Below, one piece after another: positions 9,656 through 30,513 of a stretch of DNA of 50,717 nucleotides. Under the pieces are notes generated by a model that was not told the DNA's origin, made no database searches, and worked only from the letters and a program-made list of their open reading frames with translations. This DNA comes from a virus. Position 1 is the stretch's first letter; every line of letters starts with the position of its first letter. The translations under genes were made by a program, and so were the position numbers. The stretch is taken from the IMG/VR virus record IMGVR_UViG_3300017605_000223, positions 1 through 50,717 of that record. The stretch is one strand, 5' to 3'.

Positions 9656-9813
9656 GTACCCCAAGGTGTATTTACACGTTCAACCGTCCATGCTAAACCT
9701 GGGTATCTATCACTCATGATACCTATTGCTTGTTCCTTGGCTTGATTGGTGTCTGTAGCATTTACTGGTACAGCTATACGTGCTACAACGATAACCACAG
9801 TTTGTTCTGGCAT
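9652..9813 (-). CDS. Small hypothetical protein, 53 aa
   Basis: An intact reading frame from ATG at 9813 to TAA at 9652, starting MPEQTVVIVVARIAVPVNAT and ending NTPWGT. Its start overlaps the stop of the upstream ATPase gene as TAATG, the junction style used throughout this operon, which is the main reason to accept it. Its stop overlaps that of the convergent 1553-aa gene. Composition suggests a small alpha/beta protein. No function is recognised. Confidence 0.7.
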   Translation of the reverse strand: MPEQTVVIVVARIAVPVNATDTNQAKEQAIGIMSDRYPGLAWTVERVNTPWGT

Positions 9814-11054
9814 TAGGCATTCCAAGTATCAATGTCGTTAGGATCAAAAGCTTTCTTATTATTACCACTAGTCTTAATCACAAAATGGGGGGAGGCATAG
9901 TACATTATGCTTCCCCTCTTGAATTGTATAATTTCCTCCATAGCAACAAGAGACATTAACAACTCTTCTAACTTTCTTGGTTCTGCACTTGATGAGAACA
10001 TTCCAAGAATTTCCGAGTGCGCGACAGGCTCGGATTGATGAATAAAAGAGCGCATTCTGTGGATATCAAATGTGTACGGGTTCTTTCCAACTCCTGCAAA
10101 CACCTTTGGGAGATTCCTTTCGATACCTTGAATGATGGCGATGGCATTTTGAAAATCCTGTAGCTCCAATACAAGTGAGTCGCTTTTAGCAATGTGAAGT
10201 AGCATTGCAACTTTGTGAATGTGAGCGGGCCTACGCTGATAGTATCCAGATAACTTGTAGTTATCAATCTCACCTTCTGCATGTTCCTGATACCACGCCT
10301 CCATAAACTCTTCTGCATCTTCGTTGATTATGAAATCGCCACCGATGTTCTCTGCAATATGAGTTAGGTCAGATAATAGGTCAGCGCGCATCTTAGGAAA
10401 GTTATGCTTCGCATATACGTGTCTATAGTACATACGGCGCTGACGTACTTTTTCTTCTTGGATAAATATTACACGAGATGCAAACCCACCGCCAATGATA
10501 GCTTCAGGCATATTTCCAGCGATCCATTGGGGAGTAGTCGCTGCGAGCATATTGACACAGGGTCGCATCGCAAGCTCTATACCTCTACTAGTGGTTGTCG
10601 CTTCAATTGATTTACGTCCGTCAAAAAGACTGGTGAGAAATTGAAACATGTCATCTTTAGACTTCATGATGAGGTCAGAGAATTCTTCTGAGATTAGATA
10701 AACGGATGCGTCTTGAGATTCAGCTAACTTCGTCATCAATGCTGCTTGTGTTACAATTGCTGGTCCCTTAGCAATGAACGGAATTTCATCCAGCAACTCA
10801 CTACCAAAGTTTGCAGCCGTAGTTTTACGAACCTTACCCGCATCACCAATGAAGATGATATAGAGATGTGGTGGACATTCCCATGATCCGAGATATTCCT
10901 TAGGTACTTTAACCTGTCGCCGTAAAGCCGACGATAAGATGAATAATCCGGACCAGAATACAAATGATTCTGGACTTTCGCATCTTGGGAGGGTCCATTC
11001 TCCGAAGGTCTTGAGCCAGTTCTCACACTTTCGTTCGTATTTTTTGTCGGCCAT
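9813..11054 (-). CDS. DUF3987-type ATPase, primase-helicase-like, 413 aa
   Basis: Probable replication ATPase. The nucleotide-binding loop near residues 70-79 reads GDAGKVRKTT, which resembles the aberrant P-loop of DUF3987 proteins (G-x-S-G-x-R-K) more than a classical Walker A. The hydrophobic stretch VYLISEEFSDLI contains the acidic Walker B-like pair. A downstream segment (LAATTPQWI, then GGGFASRVIFI) matches the conserved end of the DUF3987 core with its arginine. It starts one base after the upstream stop and is near the end of the long leftward operon that also encodes the polymerase. It may supply the replicative helicase function next to the split polymerase. Confidence 0.75.
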   Translation of the reverse strand: MADKKYERKCENWLKTFGEWTLPRCESPESFVFWSGLFILSSALRRQVKVPKEYLGSWECPPHLYIIFIGDAGKVRKTTAANFGSELLDEIPFIAKGPAIVTQAALMTKLAESQDASVYLISEEFSDLIMKSKDDMFQFLTSLFDGRKSIEATTTSRGIELAMRPCVNMLAATTPQWIAGNMPEAIIGGGFASRVIFIQEEKVRQRRMYYRHVYAKHNFPKMRADLLSDLTHIAENIGGDFIINEDAEEFMEAWYQEHAEGEIDNYKLSGYYQRRPAHIHKVAMLLHIAKSDSLVLELQDFQNAIAIIQGIERNLPKVFAGVGKNPYTFDIHRMRSFIHQSEPVAHSEILGMFSSSAEPRKLEELLMSLVAMEEIIQFKRGSIMYYASPHFVIKTSGNNKKAFDPNDIDTWNA

Positions 11055-11384: not shown

Positions 11385-11814
11385 TACGTTCTCTCTCCAA
11401 TTCTAATACCAGCATTGTCATTGTTGCTTCTATACCTTGTTGGAAAGCTTCTGATCTTGCTCTTGTAAGCTCAAATTGATATTTATTCTCTCTATGATTC
11501 TGATACCACTTAGTTTGTTCTATCGCATCTTTGTACCCGCATTGCCTCGCTTCGTGAAGTTTCTTCTCCCACGCCAAAGGATAGAAGCGATACCGAATAT
11601 GATTGTACCCATTGCGTACCCAACTAATAAGATAGTTAAACGGTGTAAGATATAGGACTTCGATATCTCTGTCGAAATCATAGTAACACGCTCCCATCCA
11701 CGGCGGCCTTAAACGTTCACCTTCATGATCGCGTCTATATTGTCGTGAAAGTTGTTGCTTCCATCTAGGCAGCTTTCCGCCATTTAACCTTCTCCAATTC
11801 TCCAAATCGCTCAC
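11377..11814 (-). CDS. Conserved-looking hypothetical protein, 145 aa
   Basis: Function unknown. The core is aromatic and basic (YYDFDRDIEVLYLTPFNYLI, then WVRNGYNHIRYRFYPLAW) and resembles small phage proteins of unknown role. A coiled-coil-like C-terminus follows. The start is uncertain: the open frame extends up to 11892, but that would overlap the polymerase gene by 128 bp. A GTG at 11814 or a TTG at 11805 (with GGTGAG just upstream) gives a more reasonable overlap of 40-50 bp; the GTG is used here. It lies immediately downstream of the polymerase palm/fingers gene. Confidence 0.65.
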   Translation of the reverse strand: MSDLENWRRLNGGKLPRWKQQLSRQYRRDHEGERLRPPWMGACYYDFDRDIEVLYLTPFNYLISWVRNGYNHIRYRFYPLAWEKKLHEARQCGYKDAIEQTKWYQNHRENKYQFELTRARSEAFQQGIEATMTMLVLELERERNV

Positions 11815-12646
11815 CGCGTTCGCAATCCACTGGAATTGTAAACATCTCTCCTTCAACGACAAGAGGACGTTCGAGAATGGATCTGATTTCATAGATCAAA
11901 TCCTCAGGAACCGGCTTAGGTATATGAATGAGAACACTATCATGAGCATGATTAACGACCTCATAGAAATGCTTGTCTCTAATATGTCTCTTATAAAGTT
12001 CGAGGAAGCCTCCAGGTATTCCAAGCTCTGGATGAATAGCACCGTTAAAATGGTCTGCAACAGTGCTTTGTGGCTTAAAGGCATACGCTTCTTTGAATAG
12101 CTCATTACCTTCGATTTGATAGAATGTTCTTGGGAATCCATAGTAATTGTACAATACACGTTGTTGTCTCTTAAGCTGATCTTGGATTTCAAACCACCAT
12201 GATTTGATACTGTAGTAATCATGCCACGCTCGATTCATCATCTTAGTTTGATCTAGATTGACAGTAATGAACGGTGGCTTATCAGATTCCTTATTAATAA
12301 CTTCAACCTGACGTGGCGGTTCCATACCATATGCTGAGGCGTGATTAGATTTCTTTCCAAGATATCGTTCATCATATAGAACGACGACGTGACAACCATC
12401 ATCGCGGATACATATTTTGCCGTCATTTTCTCCTGATTGCCACTTATGGTCACACCAAATCTGTTCTTGGTGGAAGATGGCAACGGCTGTTTGAGCGTGA
12501 ATATCACCAAATTGTAATGCCTTTTTCATGTTAGGTTCGTTAGCTGCGTATGCTACAATCCACGACTCAGCTTGGCTTAGATCGAAAGCTAATAGCTCAT
12601 AACCTGAGCGAGCCGTAACCATCGAACGTATTTTAACTTTGGGCAT
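11765..12646 (-). CDS. Family A DNA polymerase, palm/fingers subunit (C-terminal part), 293 aa
   Basis: Carries the three polymerase motifs of family A. Motif A is DLSQAESW with D22, S24 and E27, but the usual Arg is Trp29. Motif B is R94-x3-K98-x3-H102-x3-Y106-G-M, with His where Phe or Tyr is usual. Motif C is H235-D236-S237. Between A and B lies an extra Cys/His segment (C65, H67, C79, C85, H86) that could bind zinc. The protein lacks the exonuclease and N-terminal polymerase parts, which are in the gene at 13183-14913. The ATG at 12646 is chosen for a GAGG site six bases upstream. It overlaps the preceding 57-aa gene by 14 bp. The two polypeptides presumably assemble into one enzyme. Confidence 0.85.
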   Translation of the reverse strand: MPKVKIRSMVTARSGYELLAFDLSQAESWIVAYAANEPNMKKALQFGDIHAQTAVAIFHQEQIWCDHKWQSGENDGKICIRDDGCHVVVLYDERYLGKKSNHASAYGMEPPRQVEVINKESDKPPFITVNLDQTKMMNRAWHDYYSIKSWWFEIQDQLKRQQRVLYNYYGFPRTFYQIEGNELFKEAYAFKPQSTVADHFNGAIHPELGIPGGFLELYKRHIRDKHFYEVVNHAHDSVLIHIPKPVPEDLIYEIRSILERPLVVEGEMFTIPVDCERGERFGELEKVKWRKAA

Positions 12647-12806
12647 TCTTTGCCTCATCTGGAGTTCTACCAGTTTCTTCAACAAGAACAATTGCATCTA
12701 TGATTTCGCCAGCAATATCAATAGTTCTATCTACAGATAGATTCGTAAAATGTTTCTTTAGTATAGTTGATATAGCTTTAAGCTTCTGAGTATGTAATGT
12801 TGGCAT
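12633..12806 (-). CDS. Small hypothetical protein between the polymerase halves, 57 aa
   Basis: Intact frame from ATG at 12806 to TAA at 12633, beginning MPTLHTQKLKAISTILKKHF and ending EAKNAQS. Helical and charged by composition, with two probable amphipathic helices. The start directly abuts the upstream 84-aa gene, and the 3' end overlaps the palm/fingers polymerase start by 14 bp. The tight packing supports translation. Function unknown; a role in joining the polymerase parts is possible but has no direct support. Confidence 0.65.
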   Translation of the reverse strand: MPTLHTQKLKAISTILKKHFTNLSVDRTIDIAGEIIDAIVLVEETGRTPDEAKNAQS

Positions 12807-13061
12807 CTACTCCTCACAACATTTAATGTATTCTTCCCTCATACCTGGTTTTAATCTAATTACTGTTGCCTTAAACAACTCTCCAGCATCTTTTCTTTGC
12901 CAGAACAGACATGTAATAATCAATCTATCAAACCATTTTCCCATGAAATTAGCTGGATCATGCACGTATACACATTCACTATTCTTAAGTTGTAACTTCC
13001 GAACTAGATCACAAAAGATCTGATGATTGCCTGCTAGTATTCCAATCTGTTGTTCAATCAT
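12807..13061 (-). CDS. Hypothetical protein between the polymerase halves, 84 aa
   Basis: Not recognised. Features include GILAGNHQIF near the N-terminus, YVHDPANFMGKWFDRLIITC in the middle and a C-terminal pair of cysteines (IKCCEE). It may have a small alpha/beta fold. Its start overlaps the stop of the upstream 42-aa gene as ATGA, and its stop abuts the 57-aa gene start. It is one of three small genes inserted between the two polymerase parts. Confidence 0.7.
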   Translation of the reverse strand: MIEQQIGILAGNHQIFCDLVRKLQLKNSECVYVHDPANFMGKWFDRLIITCLFWQRKDAGELFKATVIRLKPGMREEYIKCCEE

Positions 13062-13186
13062 CTACGACCCGATATCGCAATTAGGTATCCAAGTAACATG
13101 TACTCAAGTGGCACATGAAAGATATAATGTATCGCTAACATAATACCAAGCATGCATGCTGTAACTATAATCCATGAACGTATCAC
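13058..13186 (-). CDS. Small membrane protein between the polymerase halves, 42 aa
   Basis: GTG start at 13186 inside the stop of the UDG-polymerase gene (GTGA overlap) and stop inside the next start (ATGA overlap). The protein is almost entirely hydrophobic, with two probable membrane segments (SWIIVTACMLGIMLAIHYIF and YMLLGYLIAI) and a basic RR end. The four-base overlaps on both sides are the main support. The role is unknown. Confidence 0.65.
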   Translation of the reverse strand: MIRSWIIVTACMLGIMLAIHYIFHVPLEYMLLGYLIAISGRR

Positions 13187-14913
13187 GCTGCAATATCCTC
13201 GTCGTCATCGTCATTAGCATTCTCATCAATACTAATAACAGGAGTAGCTGCCATCTCAGCTTCCATTACTTCTATGGCTTCTCTTGGCATAGTTTGAGCA
13301 TTGAAGCCACTACCATCCACATACTTTTGACAAGCAGACCGCCCTGTTTCCGGCCCAGCAGGCTTATATGTAGAACGTATCCGTCCGTCGTCTGAAATTC
13401 TTGCATTGAGATAGACGCTGATAAGCTGTCTAACACCTCGAATTTTAAGGATGCCGGTGAGTATCGAGAGTTTCCTTTCCCACTCAAACTTAGTTCTGTC
13501 AGTCTTGAGGCCAGCAATGTGATTTTTAACGAATCCAATAAGACTGACAATCGCATCTTCATCTGTTGTAAGTGCTCCCTCTCTATTTCTTCTTGCTGGG
13601 AGTTTGAGTTCATTGTATAATAAGTCTTTCAGTTTAGGACTACGAACATTACATTCGTGTCCAACAATCTTCTCGAGTAAGAATTGTAGAGTGGAGTATC
13701 TATTAGTTAGTGACTTCTTAAGTAGCGCATGACGTTCTCTATCAATCGGTAATCCTGCACGTCCGATACTACCGAATGCAGGAATCAATTCCATCTTGTA
13801 TTCATAGATATGTGTAGTCTTTGCCTGCTTCAATTCTTCGTACATTGGGATGAAACATTCAAACGTACAACAGCAATCCTTACCGTTATAGCGATAGAGG
13901 TTATTCCTGTTTGTTTTGAGGGACCAGGATTTCTGATCCTTCGGAATATCTGCCCTACCCGAACTTTTATAATACGGCTCTCTAGTGTAAATCGAGGTAA
14001 TATAGTCGAGGCTTTGCGGTAACTCCGGTTGAAGTACATGTTGCATCACCAATGTATCATGCGTATAGTTATTAACTTCATGTCCATTTATATACAACAT
14101 CTCTGTATCGAAGATGCCAAAGTGAAATATCTTCTTGGCTTGTGATCTAAGGATACGATCAATAAACTGTTGATTGTATTCTGTGTACGGAAATACAACT
14201 GCGGTGTTCGGGTCAGGTGAGAAACCTACACACAGGATATGAGTAGAATTCTTTACTGACTCGATATCACATGATAGTAGTGGGGCCTCACACAAACGTT
14301 GAGTCCATTCTTCTACTGCTAAATCCTTTGGATCAATTACAATATTACGCTGCGGATATCTGAAATCTCTGAACGCGCAATCCATGATTGCACGCTTGAT
14401 ATCCTGATCGAAAATTGGATAATCTGTACGCTGTCTTACGATGTAGGATGGATGATAGGTGGGTATGACTTTAATCTCTTTATCCCACTCGCACTGGAGG
14501 ATGCTTCCGCGCCATGCAGAAATTCCTGCGTGACCTGTTCCTTTTCCTGTGAGGATGTGCATGGGCCAATTCCCAAGTGCGACAATGACATTTGGTCTTT
14601 TAGTTGTAATGTAATGTTTAAGCTCTTCGATCCCGGACTGTAATACACTCGTCCCGAGTAACGTCTCGAATTTATTGTATTGGGGCCTAAAGTGACAGAG
14701 ATTGGCAAGTCGAACCTCCTCGCGCGCAAACCCGTTGCGCATAAGGCAATTGATAAGGATACTTCCTGCTGCACCAACAAAAGGTCGCTTGTCAAACTCT
14801 TCCGTTTCACCCGGTGCTTCACCAACGAAAACGATTTTAGAATCTTCGTTTCCTTCGTCTGGGACATATATATCACCTATCGCATATTTAGATTTATTGT
14901 TTGTCGGGTTCAT
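13183..14913 (-). CDS. Fusion of uracil-DNA glycosylase, 3'-5' exonuclease and N-terminal family A polymerase, 576 aa
   Basis: Three parts are visible in order. Residues about 28-175 form a family 4-like UDG, with the glycosylase motif GEAPGETEEFDKRPFVGAAG (31-50) and HPSYI (154-158). The two N-terminal cysteines of the family 4 iron-sulphur site are absent. Residues about 205-355 form a DnaQ-like proofreading exonuclease with D216/E218, D269 and Y342-x3-D346. The rest matches the thumb and early palm of Pol I (GLPIDRERH; ETGRSACQK near 522-530; FNAQTMP near 537-543). The chain then ends in an acidic tail (DDDDEDIAA), before motif A. The missing palm and fingers are encoded at 11765-12646. 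The UDG part may remove uracil during replication or steer repair. Confidence 0.85.
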   Translation of the reverse strand: MNPTNNKSKYAIGDIYVPDEGNEDSKIVFVGEAPGETEEFDKRPFVGAAGSILINCLMRNGFAREEVRLANLCHFRPQYNKFETLLGTSVLQSGIEELKHYITTKRPNVIVALGNWPMHILTGKGTGHAGISAWRGSILQCEWDKEIKVIPTYHPSYIVRQRTDYPIFDQDIKRAIMDCAFRDFRYPQRNIVIDPKDLAVEEWTQRLCEAPLLSCDIESVKNSTHILCVGFSPDPNTAVVFPYTEYNQQFIDRILRSQAKKIFHFGIFDTEMLYINGHEVNNYTHDTLVMQHVLQPELPQSLDYITSIYTREPYYKSSGRADIPKDQKSWSLKTNRNNLYRYNGKDCCCTFECFIPMYEELKQAKTTHIYEYKMELIPAFGSIGRAGLPIDRERHALLKKSLTNRYSTLQFLLEKIVGHECNVRSPKLKDLLYNELKLPARRNREGALTTDEDAIVSLIGFVKNHIAGLKTDRTKFEWERKLSILTGILKIRGVRQLISVYLNARISDDGRIRSTYKPAGPETGRSACQKYVDGSGFNAQTMPREAIEVMEAEMAATPVISIDENANDDDDEDIAA

Positions 14914-16033: not shown

Positions 16034-16541
16034 CTGTAGACTCCTGTATAGGCGGTTGTAAATCATCCTCCACCAAATCATCATCCTCATGTCCAGCAAA
16101 GATGAATTGACTTCCCTTATCGTAATCTCTTCGTGATCCATCGAAAGCTCGTTTCGGTAACCACGATGCTTCTCTAAATGCGTCAGCAATTAATTCCATA
16201 GCCATTTCATATGTGGCGATGAAGTATACACCATCTCTCGATTTAAAATAAAGACCTGGAACGTCCGTATCGGGAGGATCAACTTTGGCGTGCAGATATC
16301 GCTCAGGCATAACGATAAGTCTGCCTTCTCCTGCAACAGATAGAAGTGTTCCGCTATAACCGGAGAACAATACATGGTCACCTGGTTTTACCCATCGCAC
16401 TAGTGGGCCAACATACTTTACAATTCCTTGATCGCATCGGTCTTTCGCCATATCAGGTATGTAGAGTAATTTGCTCTCTGTCATATCTGAATCGAATATT
16501 GGAACACATGCGACGTTACTTCCTGGTACTCGCATTACCAT
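16026..16541 (-). CDS. GroES-like co-chaperonin domain protein, 171 aa
   Basis: Residues about 20-88 follow the Cpn10 pattern: a variable loop after YIPDMAKDRCDQ, then GIVKYVGP, VKPGDHVLFSGYSGT and GRLIVMPERYLHAKV. The last two correspond to the GDRVLFSKYAGT and ILREDDILA segments of bacterial GroES. A further 80 residues extend the protein beyond normal GroES length and end in an acidic stretch (GHEDDDLVEDDL). No GroEL gene is in the genome, so it probably works with the host chaperonin, as T4 gp31 does for capsid folding. The ATG at 16541 follows GGAG. It overlaps the HNH-like gene by 26 bp. Confidence 0.7.
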   Translation of the reverse strand: MVMRVPGSNVACVPIFDSDMTESKLLYIPDMAKDRCDQGIVKYVGPLVRWVKPGDHVLFSGYSGTLLSVAGEGRLIVMPERYLHAKVDPPDTDVPGLYFKSRDGVYFIATYEMAMELIADAFREASWLPKRAFDGSRRDYDKGSQFIFAGHEDDDLVEDDLQPPIQESTDG

Positions 16542-16995
16542 GCTTCTTTCTCCTTTTCCGACGTTTCTTTTTATATTTCACCCATTTGTTATAAGCCGCA
16601 ATAATCATCTGGCGATACTTTTCCAGTTCGTCATAGGTGGGTACTGTATTATTGTGTCTACACGTATCAAGGTACGCCCACAAATGAATGAGGATTCGTT
16701 GGTAGATTGTGTGGGCACGTTTATGGCAACGAACGCATAGCCAATCAACATCGTCAGGATGAAACTGTATGTAACGTGGAGCATAACGTTCTTCCATGAT
16801 GCAGGCAAAAAGATACTCGTGCCCTTTATGATGCCGGTGCATTTTAACGCGAACGCTATTACATTTAACGCAACGCTTAACAACCACGATGCTAGTAATA
16901 GAGAAAGAACGTACTGGTTGCAATCCATATTTAGCTTTCCACCTATCTACGTTCTCTTTCCATTCCTCGAAGTTCTCTTTACTTGTGACTGTCAT
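16516..16995 (-). CDS. HNH-like, zinc-binding nuclease candidate, 159 aa
   Basis: The centre has the layout of an HNH endonuclease: CVKCNS (first Cys pair), then MHRHHKGHEYLF with adjacent histidines, then DWLCVRCHKRAH with the second Cys pair and final His. These fit a zinc-stabilised beta-beta-alpha metal fold. A strongly basic tail (KKKRRKRRKKHG) could bind DNA. It lies between a small gene of unknown role and the GroES-like gene. No intron or intein context is visible, so it may be a free-standing nuclease or a DNA-processing factor. Confidence 0.65.
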   Translation of the reverse strand: MTVTSKENFEEWKENVDRWKAKYGLQPVRSFSITSIVVVKRCVKCNSVRVKMHRHHKGHEYLFACIMEERYAPRYIQFHPDDVDWLCVRCHKRAHTIYQRILIHLWAYLDTCRHNNTVPTYDELEKYRQMIIAAYNKWVKYKKKRRKRRKKHGNASTRK

Positions 16996-17222
16996 AAGTG
17001 TTCTTCTACTACAGTATCATAGCTTTCAATTTTCGTATCTTGGATACCTAGTGCTTTAGCAATAACTTCTCCACCCTGAGCAGCTTGTTTACACTCTGCC
17101 TTTGATACACCATATGTAACTATGTGTGTAAATTCACCATCCCATGCAACGATGATAATTTGACGTAGATCATTTTCCTTAACGAATCTGTGTGCTGCTG
17201 CGATTGCTATACGTTTAGGCAT
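16992..17222 (-). CDS. Conserved phage hypothetical protein, 76 aa
   Basis: Contains THIVTYGVSKAECKQAAQGG followed by EVIAKALG. This pattern is found in many short phage proteins of unknown function, usually as V/I-T-x-G-K-S-x-x-x-C-x-Q-A-A. It overlaps the HNH-like gene by four bases and lies directly downstream of tRNA-Tyr. The role is not known. Confidence 0.75.
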   Translation of the reverse strand: MPKRIAIAAAHRFVKENDLRQIIIVAWDGEFTHIVTYGVSKAECKQAAQGGEVIAKALGIQDTKIESYDTVVEEHL

Positions 17223-17223
17223 A

Positions 17224-17313
17224 ATGGCTAGGGGTGGGAGTTGAACCCACAGCGCCCCTGTCGGAGAACGGATTTACAGTCCGTTGCAGCCAACCGATAT
17301 CTGCCTCCCTGCC
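17224..17313 (-). tRNA. tRNA-Tyr (anticodon GTA)
   Basis: On the minus strand the D-stem is GCAG/CTGC, the anticodon stem ACGGA/TCCGT closes the loop CTGTAAA (anticodon GTA), and a type II variable arm (CTCC/GGGG) is present, as expected for bacterial tRNA-Tyr. The T-arm is GTGGG-TTCAACT-CCCAC. The acceptor stem is imperfect: 5' GGCAGGG against 3' CCCTAGCC pairs only with a bulge or mismatch, and no CCA is encoded at the proper place. Ends are uncertain by a few bases. Confidence 0.85.
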
Positions 17314-17317
17314 GTAC

Positions 17318-17452
17318 TTAAGCACCGTAGTATCCTAATTTCATAGCTTCTGATTCAGGAAATGTTTCTGGGTCTAATTCCCAATATGTTCTAGTAATAA
17401 GTAAGAACAAATAAGAACGAAAGTACTGAACAAACGCACCTTTAACTATCAT
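17318..17452 (-). CDS. Small hypothetical protein between two tRNAs, 44 aa
   Basis: Open frame from ATG 17452 to TAA 17318, starting MIVKGAFVQYFRSYLFLLIT and ending with ESEAMKLGYYGA. It has a hydrophobic, aromatic N-terminal half and an acidic C-terminal half. It fills the gap between tRNA-Leu and tRNA-Tyr, and its first base is the tRNA-Leu discriminator base. The clean fit suggests a real gene, but no ribosome site can exist outside the tRNA sequence. Confidence 0.5.
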   Translation of the reverse strand: MIVKGAFVQYFRSYLFLLITRTYWELDPETFPESEAMKLGYYGA

Positions 17453-17535
17453 GCTCGTGGCGGGACTCGAACCCGCATAGCGCGAACGCCGAGAGATTTT
17501 AAGTCTCTTGTGTATACCGATTCCACCACACGAGC
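17452..17535 (-). tRNA. tRNA-Leu (anticodon TAA)
   Basis: A complete type II tRNA of 84 nt on the minus strand. The acceptor GCTCGTG/CACGAGC pairs fully, with discriminator A. The D region GTGGAATCGGTATACAC is typical of tRNA-Leu. The anticodon arm AGAGA-CTTAAAA-TCTCT gives anticodon TAA, reading TTA codons. A long variable arm and the T-arm GCGGG-TTCGAGT-CCCGC follow. No CCA is encoded. TTA is a common codon in this phage, so it may supplement the host pool. Confidence 0.95.
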
Positions 17536-17583: not shown

Positions 17584-17961
17584 TTATGCATCGCTCGTCT
17601 CAGGCCCGGTTTCATTAACTGCTGCCACGCTCCCGGCACGAATCGGCTGCGACGTTTGCGTAGGTGCAGGAATACCAAAGTATTGTAGATGCCATTCTTC
17701 AAAGGACTTGTGTCTATTTTCATATTCACGTCTACCACAATCAGCCCAAGTAATCTCAATCGCGCCATGTTCCACCGCCAGCTTCCGTTTGGATTTGGCT
17801 ATATCGAAATGTTCACCAACGTGACCGGCTTTCTGTATCCAATGACGACCGACACCAATCTTGTCAGCCATCTCAACTAACTCTGTATGTGTATCCGCAA
17901 CCATATGACACATAATCATGCGTCCAAATGGTGCTTCCATATCATCTACGTAGACGCTCAT
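17584..17961 (-). CDS. DUF4031 domain protein, 125 aa
   Basis: The N-terminal 75 residues match DUF4031 closely in pattern: SVYVDDMEAPFGRMIMCHMV, then HTELVEMADKIGV, W at the usual site, HFDIAKSKRKLAVEHGAIEI and TWADC. DUF4031 proteins are small and of unknown biochemical role, common in phages and some bacteria. The remaining 50 residues are a variable Pro/Thr-rich tail. The ATG at 17961 begins three bases after the tRNA-like RNA ends; an in-frame TTG at 17970 would lie within that RNA. Confidence 0.85.
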   Translation of the reverse strand: MSVYVDDMEAPFGRMIMCHMVADTHTELVEMADKIGVGRHWIQKAGHVGEHFDIAKSKRKLAVEHGAIEITWADCGRREYENRHKSFEEWHLQYFGIPAPTQTSQPIRAGSVAAVNETGPETSDA

Positions 17962-17963
17962 AA

Positions 17964-18063
17964 GGCGCAAGCCGGAATCGAACCAGCCTTCTCCAATAAT
18001 ATAGTGGCCGAACTATACTATCGAAGCTACCCAAGAACACGGGAGACAAGTGTTCTTTGCGCC
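17964..18063 (-). ncRNA. tRNA-like RNA without a recognisable anticodon loop, 100 nt
   Basis: The minus strand reads GGCGCAA at 18063-18057 and its exact complement TTGCGCC at 17970-17964, a seven-base acceptor-like stem. Next to the 3' side is a canonical T-arm, GCTGG-TTCGATT-CCGGC. Between them are a hairpin AGAACAC/GTGTTCT with a nine-base loop and a long hairpin of about ten pairs (ATAGTATAGT against ACTATATTAT, loop TCGGCC) on a CTTC/GAAG base. No seven-base anticodon loop with a usable anticodon was found. It may be a degenerate tRNA, a tRNA mimic or a decoy for tRNA-binding or tRNA-cutting enzymes. Confidence 0.6.
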
Positions 18064-28269: not shown

Positions 28270-30513
28270 CTAACTCGCTTTCTTGGAGCGGGCCTCATAC
28301 ATTGCATCACGCATTCTCTTGAGTAGATCGCTCGCAACGCTCTCATCTCCAGTAATCTGCTTACCATCTACAACTTGACCGATCAATGCACGCTTCTCAT
28401 GGATCAATTCTTGAATCCATTCCTCAATTGTATCTGTTGCAACTAGATATGTGACATTGGCGCCATGCAAGTTAGATAGCCGCCCGTATGCGCGACCGAT
28501 ACACTGGTCGTGATCCTTTGGTGTCCAAAACAAATCAGCTTTGATTACATATCCAGCGCGTGTTAAATTAAGCCCTTCTTGTGCTACACCCTTTGTAGCT
28601 ACTAGGAAATGGATGTTATCGTTATTCTGAAATTGATCCTCTACTGCTGTACGCGCTTGTCCTTGTTCAACTTCACCTGTAAGTAATACACATTCATCAC
28701 CTAGACGTTTGGCAATAGCTTTGGCTACTGGCACAAACTGTGTAAAGATGATTACCTTGTTATTCTTCTCATCTTCTGGTGCAGAATCATATTGTTCTAC
28801 TGCCAAATCAGCTACAGCTTCGATCTTGGCGATAGATGCGATTTGTTTCAATCTCATAATCTGTGCGAGCATACTTGTAATCTCTTGCTGTGCTCCTGCG
28901 CGCGTTGGGTCCCAATCTGCCATGATTGTGTATACGCCAGCAAGTACCTTTTCGTATAGCTTACGAGCTTTTGGTGGCAATTCAAACCACTTGACAATCT
29001 CATTAATTGGTGGCAAATCTTTGATTACATCTTTCTTCAAACGTCTGATTGCTAGAAACTTGAGGATTTCGCGTAGTTGATCCACGTTACGCGCATACTT
29101 CCCATCACCATACTGTGTGGTGAATGTCTGTTCATATGGGAATGTGTCTGGATCAATGATTGTGAGCAACGGCCACAATTCATCCACACGATTTACAACT
29201 GGCGTACCTGTAGCGATGGACGCATGTAATACACTCTTGAGCATTCGTCCAGCTTGACTACGTAATGAATCACTGTTCTTGAGATAATGGCCCTCGTCGA
29301 ATCCAATGAATGAGAATCCCATTTGATCTATGAGATTCACCCACGGCCACACATCTTCTTCCTTGTGCAATACATCTCTACCATCAGCTTCATTCTTAGT
29401 CACATATGGTTCAATCTTCACGCGCGTAGCAAGTGCATCATAGTTAATCAGGAAAATCTCAGGCTGGCCCATCATCATAACCATCATATCGTGTTGGTTA
29501 GGTTGACGACCAGATAGAATGTGTGCATCTATTCCTGTGAGTTTCTTAACCTCACGTTTCCAATTGATAATCAGATTTGCTGGTACACAGAATAGAGCTT
29601 TGTATCTACGTACTTTCTCATCTTTCTCTTTCTCTGCACGACGCTTAAGAATCTGTCTCCATACGAAAGCTAACTCTTGCCACGTTTTACCCAATCCCAT
29701 TTCATCCCAGCACATCCATCTACCTTCGGCAGCTTCCGCATACGCTACACCTACACGCTGAAATGGGCGCAATTCAAATGGTTTGCCGGTATCTGGATTA
29801 ATGCCAATAAACATTGCATCTATATCTGCGTCCTCAGCTTTAAGTAATGCAACTAGTCTATTGCGCTTCTCAGCTTGTGCGATAGCTGTAGATAATGCTT
29901 CTTCACTCCACTTAACTATATACTTCTTCATGGAATCAGCGGTGAGATTAGCGTATAGACGCCATCCCTCACTAAGAGGCACAACTACATTATTGTGTGT
30001 ATTGTCTTGTGCTACGGACCAACGTGTTCCCGGTATACCCGAGAATGGATTTGCTGGAGCGTTGTTATAGAGGATTACACTGTATTGCTTCTTATCAATA
30101 TCCACGACATAATCAGGTGTACGCTCATTATGAATGATACGAGTGAAGATGTTAATTGATTCACGATCTGGCGTTTGATCCTTGAATACAAACTTAATAG
30201 GTGTATTGTCAGACAGGAAATCGCCTAATACTGTGAGGAAATCCCAACGTGATAGCACATGCGTTGCTCCCACAAACTTGTGTGAGTCAAACGTATGTAG
30301 ATAATCCACAACGTCATCACGTACAGTAATGGTAAAGAATACAGCTTGCTCGTGCACGTCAAATTTATTGACTCGCACTTCTACGGGTCTTTCCATTAAT
30401 AGCCGCTTGTGTTCTGCCTCTTCCAAAAGCTTACGCTTTTCTGCTAACTCACGTAATTGTTTCTCTAACATTTGTTCTTGCGCCAATATGGCGTCAATAT
30501 CTTCTTTAGACAT
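28270..30513 (-). CDS. SNF2-family DNA helicase/translocase, 747 aa
   Basis: Contains both RecA-like lobes of a superfamily 2 SNF2-type enzyme. Residues 1-240 are an N-terminal extension that starts with a coiled coil. Motif Q/I follows as LRPFQRVGVAYA and DEMGLGKT (270-277). Motif II is DEGH in FIGFDEGHYLKN. Lobe 2 has IIFTQFVPVAKAI, LLTGEV, ATKGVAQEGLNLTRAGYVI and motif VI QCIGRAYGR. Such enzymes move on duplex DNA and are common in phage replication regions, where they may aid recombination or displace proteins. It lies three bases downstream of the 178-aa gene. Confidence 0.9.
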   Translation of the reverse strand: MSKEDIDAILAQEQMLEKQLRELAEKRKLLEEAEHKRLLMERPVEVRVNKFDVHEQAVFFTITVRDDVVDYLHTFDSHKFVGATHVLSRWDFLTVLGDFLSDNTPIKFVFKDQTPDRESINIFTRIIHNERTPDYVVDIDKKQYSVILYNNAPANPFSGIPGTRWSVAQDNTHNNVVVPLSEGWRLYANLTADSMKKYIVKWSEEALSTAIAQAEKRNRLVALLKAEDADIDAMFIGINPDTGKPFELRPFQRVGVAYAEAAEGRWMCWDEMGLGKTWQELAFVWRQILKRRAEKEKDEKVRRYKALFCVPANLIINWKREVKKLTGIDAHILSGRQPNQHDMMVMMMGQPEIFLINYDALATRVKIEPYVTKNEADGRDVLHKEEDVWPWVNLIDQMGFSFIGFDEGHYLKNSDSLRSQAGRMLKSVLHASIATGTPVVNRVDELWPLLTIIDPDTFPYEQTFTTQYGDGKYARNVDQLREILKFLAIRRLKKDVIKDLPPINEIVKWFELPPKARKLYEKVLAGVYTIMADWDPTRAGAQQEITSMLAQIMRLKQIASIAKIEAVADLAVEQYDSAPEDEKNNKVIIFTQFVPVAKAIAKRLGDECVLLTGEVEQGQARTAVEDQFQNNDNIHFLVATKGVAQEGLNLTRAGYVIKADLFWTPKDHDQCIGRAYGRLSNLHGANVTYLVATDTIEEWIQELIHEKRALIGQVVDGKQITGDESVASDLLKRMRDAMYEARSKKAS

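Follow-up and report, generated by a model that had tools for sequence, protein, structure and literature searches.

A family A DNA polymerase with an N-terminal uracil-DNA glycosylase domain is divided between two genes in a clade of uncultivated viruses

The stretch of DNA analysed here, referred to as the window, is the IMG/VR virus record IMGVR_UViG_3300017605_000223 (50717 bases), which comes from an uncultivated virus and may be incomplete. On its minus strand, five tightly packed genes run from position 14913 down to 11765, and the outer two of these code for the two parts of a family A DNA polymerase, the first of which carries a uracil-DNA glycosylase (UDG) domain at its N-terminus. 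The encoded proteins have, in order, 576 (chain 1), 42, 84, 57 and 293 (chain 2) amino acids (aa), and the open reading frames (ORFs), coordinates and gene order given in a preliminary description of this DNA hold. The ORF of chain 2 begins mechanically at 12697, and the ATG at 12646 was taken as the start. The features of the locus are:

13183-14913, minus strand: chain 1, 576 aa, with UDG, 3'-5' exonuclease, thumb and N-terminal palm (to TGR..FNAQTMP) and an acidic tail (Pfam, PHROGs, NCBIfam, AlphaFold2 (AF2) model, Klenow match)
14365-14886, minus strand: UDG domain, chain 1 residues 10-183, with E32, N71, H154 and R160 kept and without iron-sulphur (Fe-S) cysteines (VIA-align to 1ui1, motif table)
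13819-14355, minus strand: 3'-5' exonuclease domain, about residues 187-365, with D216, E218, D269, Y342 and D346 (PF01612)
13285-13818, minus strand: residues 366-543, comprising the thumb and the N-terminal palm as far as TGR..FNAQTMP (PF00476 profile positions 6-123, structure alignment)
13186-13284, minus strand: acidic C-terminal tail of chain 1, 33 aa (12 D/E, 1 K/R), probably disordered (low model confidence)
13058-13186, minus strand: spacer gene 1, with a hydrophobic product of 42 aa that is probably a membrane peptide; the GTG start of the gene overlaps the chain 1 stop
12807-13061, minus strand: spacer gene 2, 84 aa, without a match to any Pfam or PHROG family
12633-12806, minus strand: spacer gene 3, 57 aa, overlapping the start of chain 2 by 14 nucleotides (nt)
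11765-12646, minus strand: chain 2, 293 aa, with C-terminal palm and fingers and motifs A, B and C; ATG at 12646 (Pfam, PHROG 17, AF2)
12389-12454, minus strand: Cys/His-rich insert of chain 2 between motifs A and B (C65, H67, C79, C85, H86), possible zinc site
9813-11054, minus strand: DUF3987 / PHROG 14296 'DNA primase' gene, a replication gene downstream of chain 2 (Pfam, PHROG)

Chain 1 matches the Pfam families UDG (E-value 2.6e-23, residues 18-164), DNA_pol_A_exo1 (1.1e-5) and the N-terminal part of DNA_pol_A (1.2e-5), and chain 2 matches the remainder of DNA_pol_A, from profile position 138 onwards (8.2e-9). The profile of PHROG 17, a UDG-exonuclease-PolA fusion family, is matched by chain 1 at positions 475-988 (1.5e-36) and by chain 2 at positions 986-1236 (4.2e-20). 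As the coverage meets at 986-988, the chains are complementary without duplication, in agreement with the preliminary description, which had also placed the break correctly between an LQNIP-type segment and motif A. Motifs A (D22), B (R94, K98, H102, Y106) and C (H235, D236, S237) are all located in the 293-aa chain. The exonuclease set of chain 1, likewise reported earlier as complete, comprises the five residues listed above, which are invariant in an alignment (A6) of the five members of the split clade that were aligned first. The hallmarks of family A, that is motifs A, B and C and the Pol I fold, are provided only by both chains jointly, with the TGR segment residing in chain 1. A polymerase domain in one polypeptide, which is usual for the family but not strictly defining, is replaced by two genes here and in seven related records.

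The single-chain AF2 models tile the Klenow structure 1kln_A. The model of chain 1 has a predicted local distance difference test score (pLDDT) of 85.2 and a predicted template modelling score (pTM) of 0.76, with pLDDT values below 50 at residues 556-576, and that of chain 2 has a pLDDT of 89.4 and a pTM of 0.87. Residues 187-549 of chain 1 align to Klenow residues 324-688 (Z 19.8, root-mean-square deviation (rmsd) 3.7 Å) and residues 1-285 of chain 2 to Klenow residues 683-928 (Z 20.1, rmsd 2.9 Å), and the pair therefore makes up a single polymerase whose two parts meet within the palm. Since the two catalytic aspartates and the fingers come from chain 2, and the thumb and the TGR arginine from chain 1, neither chain is a complete polymerase alone. 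The motif B histidine at residue 102 of chain 2 (window 12341-12343) occupies the position of F762 in E. coli Pol I, where a histidine is present in 25 of the 33 polymerases compared; two papers on this position (PMC6302109, PMC13228545) sort phage PolA proteins solely into those with Tyr, Phe or Leu.

Relatives with single-chain and with split polymerases were gathered by tblastn of deposited phages and by iterative scans of IMG/VR, and break points were located by running a profile of the joined protein against all ORFs; two broad alignments (A1 and A2) yielded no conserved stretch usable for scanning the collection. The break falls at the same residue in eight virus records, namely the window, L001 (3300019886_000007), L016 (3300005937_000031), L017 (3300000890_000071), L018 (3300012682_000003), L023 (3300011444_000001), L024 (3300020003_000061) and L025 (3300012358_000008). 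These eight form one clade (support 100/100), in which the chain lengths are 574-604 aa (chain 1) and 265-299 aa (chain 2), the two chain genes lie close together in a fixed order, and the distances of the N-terminal and C-terminal polymerase parts correlate with an r of 0.97. The window and L001 are 84% identical in chain 1 and 90% identical in chain 2. For this pair, the ratio of non-synonymous to synonymous substitutions (dN/dS) is 0.095 in chain 1, and in chain 2 dN is 0.097 with dS saturated. The low dN/dS points to purifying selection, and the split genes are thus not in decay. Division into two pieces is ancient in this phage lineage and has been inherited throughout it. At the junction, chain 2 starts just ahead of the palm segment, and chain 1 ends in an acidic tail, which extends past the break by 30-46 residues, including 11-18 D/E, in all eight members. 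The CxH..C..C insert of chain 2, which is a possible zinc site, is present in the window, L001, L016 and L017 and absent in L018 and L023-L025.

The same LQNIP / motif A site is also broken in Vibrio phage vB_VspS_VS-ABTNL-3 (MF497422), which encodes proteins of 568, 184 and 298 aa. This phage groups with the unsplit Mel-JY34 and ctMlz233 (support 100/99), and a single origin of the same-site splits was rejected, as the tree joining the Vibrio phage to the eight records has a p-value of 5.1e-5 in the approximately unbiased test. According to the phylogeny, the gene was divided independently at this position on two or more occasions. A split family A polymerase with a small ORF in between has been published for the OM43 phages MEP401/402 (PMC10580990). 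In MEP401, a chain with the exonuclease and the N-terminal polymerase part is followed by a 77-aa ORF and a C-terminal chain, and the break lies about a dozen residues beyond that of the clade, just before motif A. The chains of the Vibrio phage and of MEP401 lack the acidic tail. In the alignment around the break, the stretch from LQNIP to the following conserved segment contains inserts that vary widely in length among unsplit relatives, which suggests that this site is tolerant of interruption. The same-site split in L039 may reflect a 1-nt frameshift relative to its unsplit close relative L038. The UDG-PolA proteins of Caulobacter phage Kuura (L011), ctLwi270 (L005) and a Sulfuriferula metagenome-assembled genome (MAG; L042) are divided at the exonuclease/polymerase border instead, with one to several small genes in the spacer, which in ctLwi270 is an NrdR-like zinc ribbon gene.

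The UDG domain superposes on the Thermus thermophilus UDG 1ui1 with a Z of 23.6 and an rmsd of 1.8 Å over 165 aligned residues at 32% identity (VIA-align), family 4 being the best match by fold and by profile, although the profile score stays below the curated NCBIfam cut-off. Its active-site positions were read from alignments with UdgX and with family 4 enzymes of solved structure. All eight clade members retain E32 (the Glu of GExPG), N71, H154 (of HP(S/A)) and R160. None of the eight possesses the Fe-S cysteines: an N-terminal CxxC is missing, and the other two cysteine positions of the Thermotoga (Tma) enzyme are occupied by F/Y/H and by G. The earlier designation of the domain as family 4-like is thus right for sequence and fold but not for the Fe-S cysteines of that family, and from these alignments we assign it as family 4-like without an iron-sulphur site. 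The position of the crosslinking histidine H109 of UdgX is F82 in the window, and the preceding loop is absent in the alignment to UdgX. In the comparison of the window with L001, the proportion of synonymous differences (pS) in the UDG domain (14365-14886) is 0.37, about half of that in the exonuclease (0.83) and thumb (0.72), which may be due to recombination or to a constraint on the DNA. Matches to dUTPase (PF00692) or thymidylate synthases (PF00303, PF02511), which would bear on uracil in DNA, were not found in this possibly incomplete record.

The UDG domain may instead be a non-enzyme DNA-binding or processivity module, following the logic of poxvirus D4, a role that is compatible with a two-subunit polymerase and to which we assign slightly less than an even chance. 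The Fe-S cysteines are missing throughout the clade, and active-site residues have been lost in several relatives, including Gordonia phage HippoPololi and several IMG/VR records. The degenerate active site in several sister lineages implies that a non-catalytic role is viable, and poxvirus D4 provides the precedent of a UDG serving as processivity factor (PMC10253040, PMC11142717). However, the conservation of all four active-site residues in the eight members over a large divergence suggests selection on the active site. The preliminary description had put forward uracil surveillance at the fork; with the tested positions kept in this clade but degeneration in several sister lineages, a role in DNA binding is equally plausible.

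The spacer between the chains ranges from 3 nt in L018 to 536 nt in the window, where it holds three ORFs; L017 has one gene of 65 aa, L016 one of 122 aa, and the other members have one to three small genes. Spacer gene 1 has a 43-aa homologue at the equivalent place in L001 (blastp, 64% identity over 33 residues), and past this first small gene the spacers of the window and L001 are mostly unrelated. The 62-aa spacer gene of L023 (L023:4789-4977) is 61% identical to a gene at window 16992-17222, and the 90-aa spacer gene of L024 (L024:4699-4971) is 75% identical to a gene at window 17584-17970, both outside the polymerase. Small accessory genes therefore move between sites and, considering also the variation of the spacers, are gained and lost at this border. 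The two accessory genes (PHROG 38816; DUF4031/PHROG 4887) lie near tRNA genes in the window and in the polymerase spacer in L023 and L024. The spacer genes to which a name could be given encode a DUF4031 protein, zinc ribbons and a ribbon resembling NrdR, and one exonuclease/polymerase split holds the gene of a nucleotide-hydrolase-like protein. A homing endonuclease was rejected as the splitting agent, as no match to one turned up among the spacer genes tested, and no intein (Hint) halves were detected with Pfam in either chain or in the spacer genes. Stop readthrough was also rejected, since a shared frame interrupted by a single stop occurs in L018 alone.

Several other explanations for the divided gene have to be considered. 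The preliminary description had named a sequencing error at 13183 as a threat to the split. This fails, as 536 nt with three ORFs lie between the chains and seven other assemblies are split with a different spacer or none. More broadly, the window is a single uncultivated virus record, which leaves room for an assembly error or a decaying pseudogene, but with the break common to seven further records, compact coding sequence throughout the spacer, a dN/dS of about 0.1 and the catalytic residues kept, we regard the probability of either as negligible. Introns are common in phage polymerase genes, and the spacer could be, or derive from, a self-splicing intron, in which case splicing would yield an mRNA for a single polypeptide, as in the SPO1 group. 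The annotation of SPO1 gene 31 includes an intron, and Bacillus phage BSP7 has a group I intron in polymerase motif B (L013:5884-6163; Rfam E-value 3.2e-11, 48.5 bits, just under the gathering score); the BSP7 record labels the polymerase halves 'DNA polymerase I' and 'DNA polymerase II'. An intron was also raised as a possibility for MEP401 by its authors (PMC10580990). For the clade, we consider this very improbable: no Rfam match was obtained in the spacers of the window or L001 at a setting that recovers the BSP7 intron, the spacer DNA of the window is largely unrelated to that of a relative 84-90% identical in the chains past the first small gene, the genes are only 3 nt apart in L018, and the conserved acidic tail precedes the stop of chain 1.

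The chains might also act separately, chain 1 as a stand-alone UDG-exonuclease and chain 2 as a different or inactive enzyme. Each chain models confidently alone, and the enzymes of Kuura, ctLwi270 and the Sulfuriferula MAG are divided where the parts would be more self-sufficient. In the clade, however, the break passes through the palm and leaves chain 2 with neither the thumb nor the TGR arginine and chain 1 with neither catalytic aspartate. Divergence in one polymerase part is matched by that in the other, and the two always occur together and in order. Separate action is therefore improbable.

We propose that the two genes code for the subunits of one family A DNA polymerase, which would be expressed from one operon and assemble non-covalently, with the UDG domain adding DNA binding and/or uracil surveillance, and we consider this highly probable. 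Both chains would be translated from the tightly packed operon and would associate into a Klenow-like enzyme, as suggested by the single-chain models. An ancestor of the lineage probably had its gene divided in the loop that leads from the LQNIP segment to motif A, after which small accessory genes would have been gained and lost at the new gene border and chain 1 would have gained its acidic tail. The UDG domain is expected to bind DNA near the polymerase and, as the active-site positions tested are kept despite the lost Fe-S site, probably recognises or excises uracil in this lineage. A number of points weigh against this proposal. All eight clade members, including the window, are uncultivated virus records, the assembly of the chains is predicted from models of single chains, and uracil excision by the UDG domain is a prediction from sequence. 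In addition, the Fe-S cysteines of family 4 are gone, chain 1 scores below the NCBIfam family 4 cut-off (100.9 versus 125.3 bits; profile E-value 6.4e-29), and the UDG domain is degenerate in Vibrio phage VS-ABTNL-3, a Desulfofustis phage and others. We could go further and speculate that these phages form a lineage with an obligate two-subunit, uracil-sensing replicase, in which the non-covalently reassembled Pol I site is ancestral and has been maintained, the tail at the fission point aids docking or regulation, and the Fe-S-free UDG is active together with synthesis, but we hold this extended scenario to be doubtful.

A DUF3987-like gene is also found downstream of the polymerase in L001, L016, L017, L018, L019 and phage vir526. 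The same early region of the window encodes an SNF2-family helicase of 747 aa (28270-30513). Genes for tRNA-Tyr and tRNA-Leu are located on the minus strand at 17226-17313 and 17452-17535, and the tRNA-Leu gene contains 42 nt that recur in Pseudomonas jumbo phages at 93% identity. Upstream of the polymerase operon, a small HNH-like protein with Cys/His pairs and a weak PHROG endonuclease match is encoded in the window (16516-16995) and in L018 (L018:2514-3041), and two adjoining short ORFs just upstream of chain 1 in L016 (L016:2018-2403) read like one HNH endonuclease in two pieces.

Taken together, a polymerase active site that is encoded by two genes, inherited throughout a clade and divided recurrently at one spot marks a place where the Pol I fold naturally tolerates a break. 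The clade supplies ready-made chain pairs for testing how a polymerase assembles, and annotation that relies on single ORFs will miss or misname such enzymes. A UDG domain that lacks the Fe-S site and keeps the active site also makes the old question of the role of UDG on SPO1-type polymerases testable. Four features are apparently undescribed, namely a UDG-PolA clade that inherited its split, the recurrence of fission at a single site, the acidic tail, and a UDG that retains the active-site positions while lacking the Fe-S site; our literature search returned no earlier description of them, which is weak evidence, as most subscription papers fell outside the search.

The UDG fusion and the split had both been pointed out as oddities in the preliminary description. 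They are real and clade-wide, but the fusion is known from SPO1, PHROG 17 and the solved structure 9qhs, and a split has been published for MEP401/402. Vibrio phage VS-ABTNL-3 resembles the window in its N-terminal UDG superfamily domain and its break site, the split being annotated but not remarked on in its record, and differs by an independent fission, a degenerate UDG active site, the missing acidic tail and another spacer gene. The MEP401/402 polymerase, which belongs to another phage group, has neither a UDG domain nor an acidic tail. The family 4 UDGs of Thermus (1ui0/1ui1), Thermotoga (1vk2) and Sulfolobus (4zbx) resemble the UDG domain of the clade in fold (Z about 23) and at the active-site positions that were compared, whereas the clade's domain lacks their Fe-S cysteines, is part of a polymerase and falls below the NCBIfam cut-off.

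A UDG fused to a family A polymerase is thus already known from SPO1, PHROG 17, several deposited phages and 9qhs. The annotated SPO1 DNA polymerase has a UDG domain match (E-value 3.2e-22), solved UDG proteins carry the name 'Phage SPO1 DNA polymerase-related', and the phiLo polymerase, solved as 9qhs, has an N-terminal UDG match, a comparison that rests on Foldseek and phmmer. A search for literature on the UDG domain of phage polymerases gave nothing useful, and no paper on the phiLo polymerase was found. SPO1 gp31, phiLo 9qhs, the polymerase of Microcystis phage Mel-JY34, which like the window has lost the Fe-S cysteines, and PHROG 17 all contain UDG, 3'-5' exonuclease and polymerase in the same order as in the window. 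These fusions are single-chain proteins, interrupted in SPO1 by an intron, whereas the window encodes two chains.

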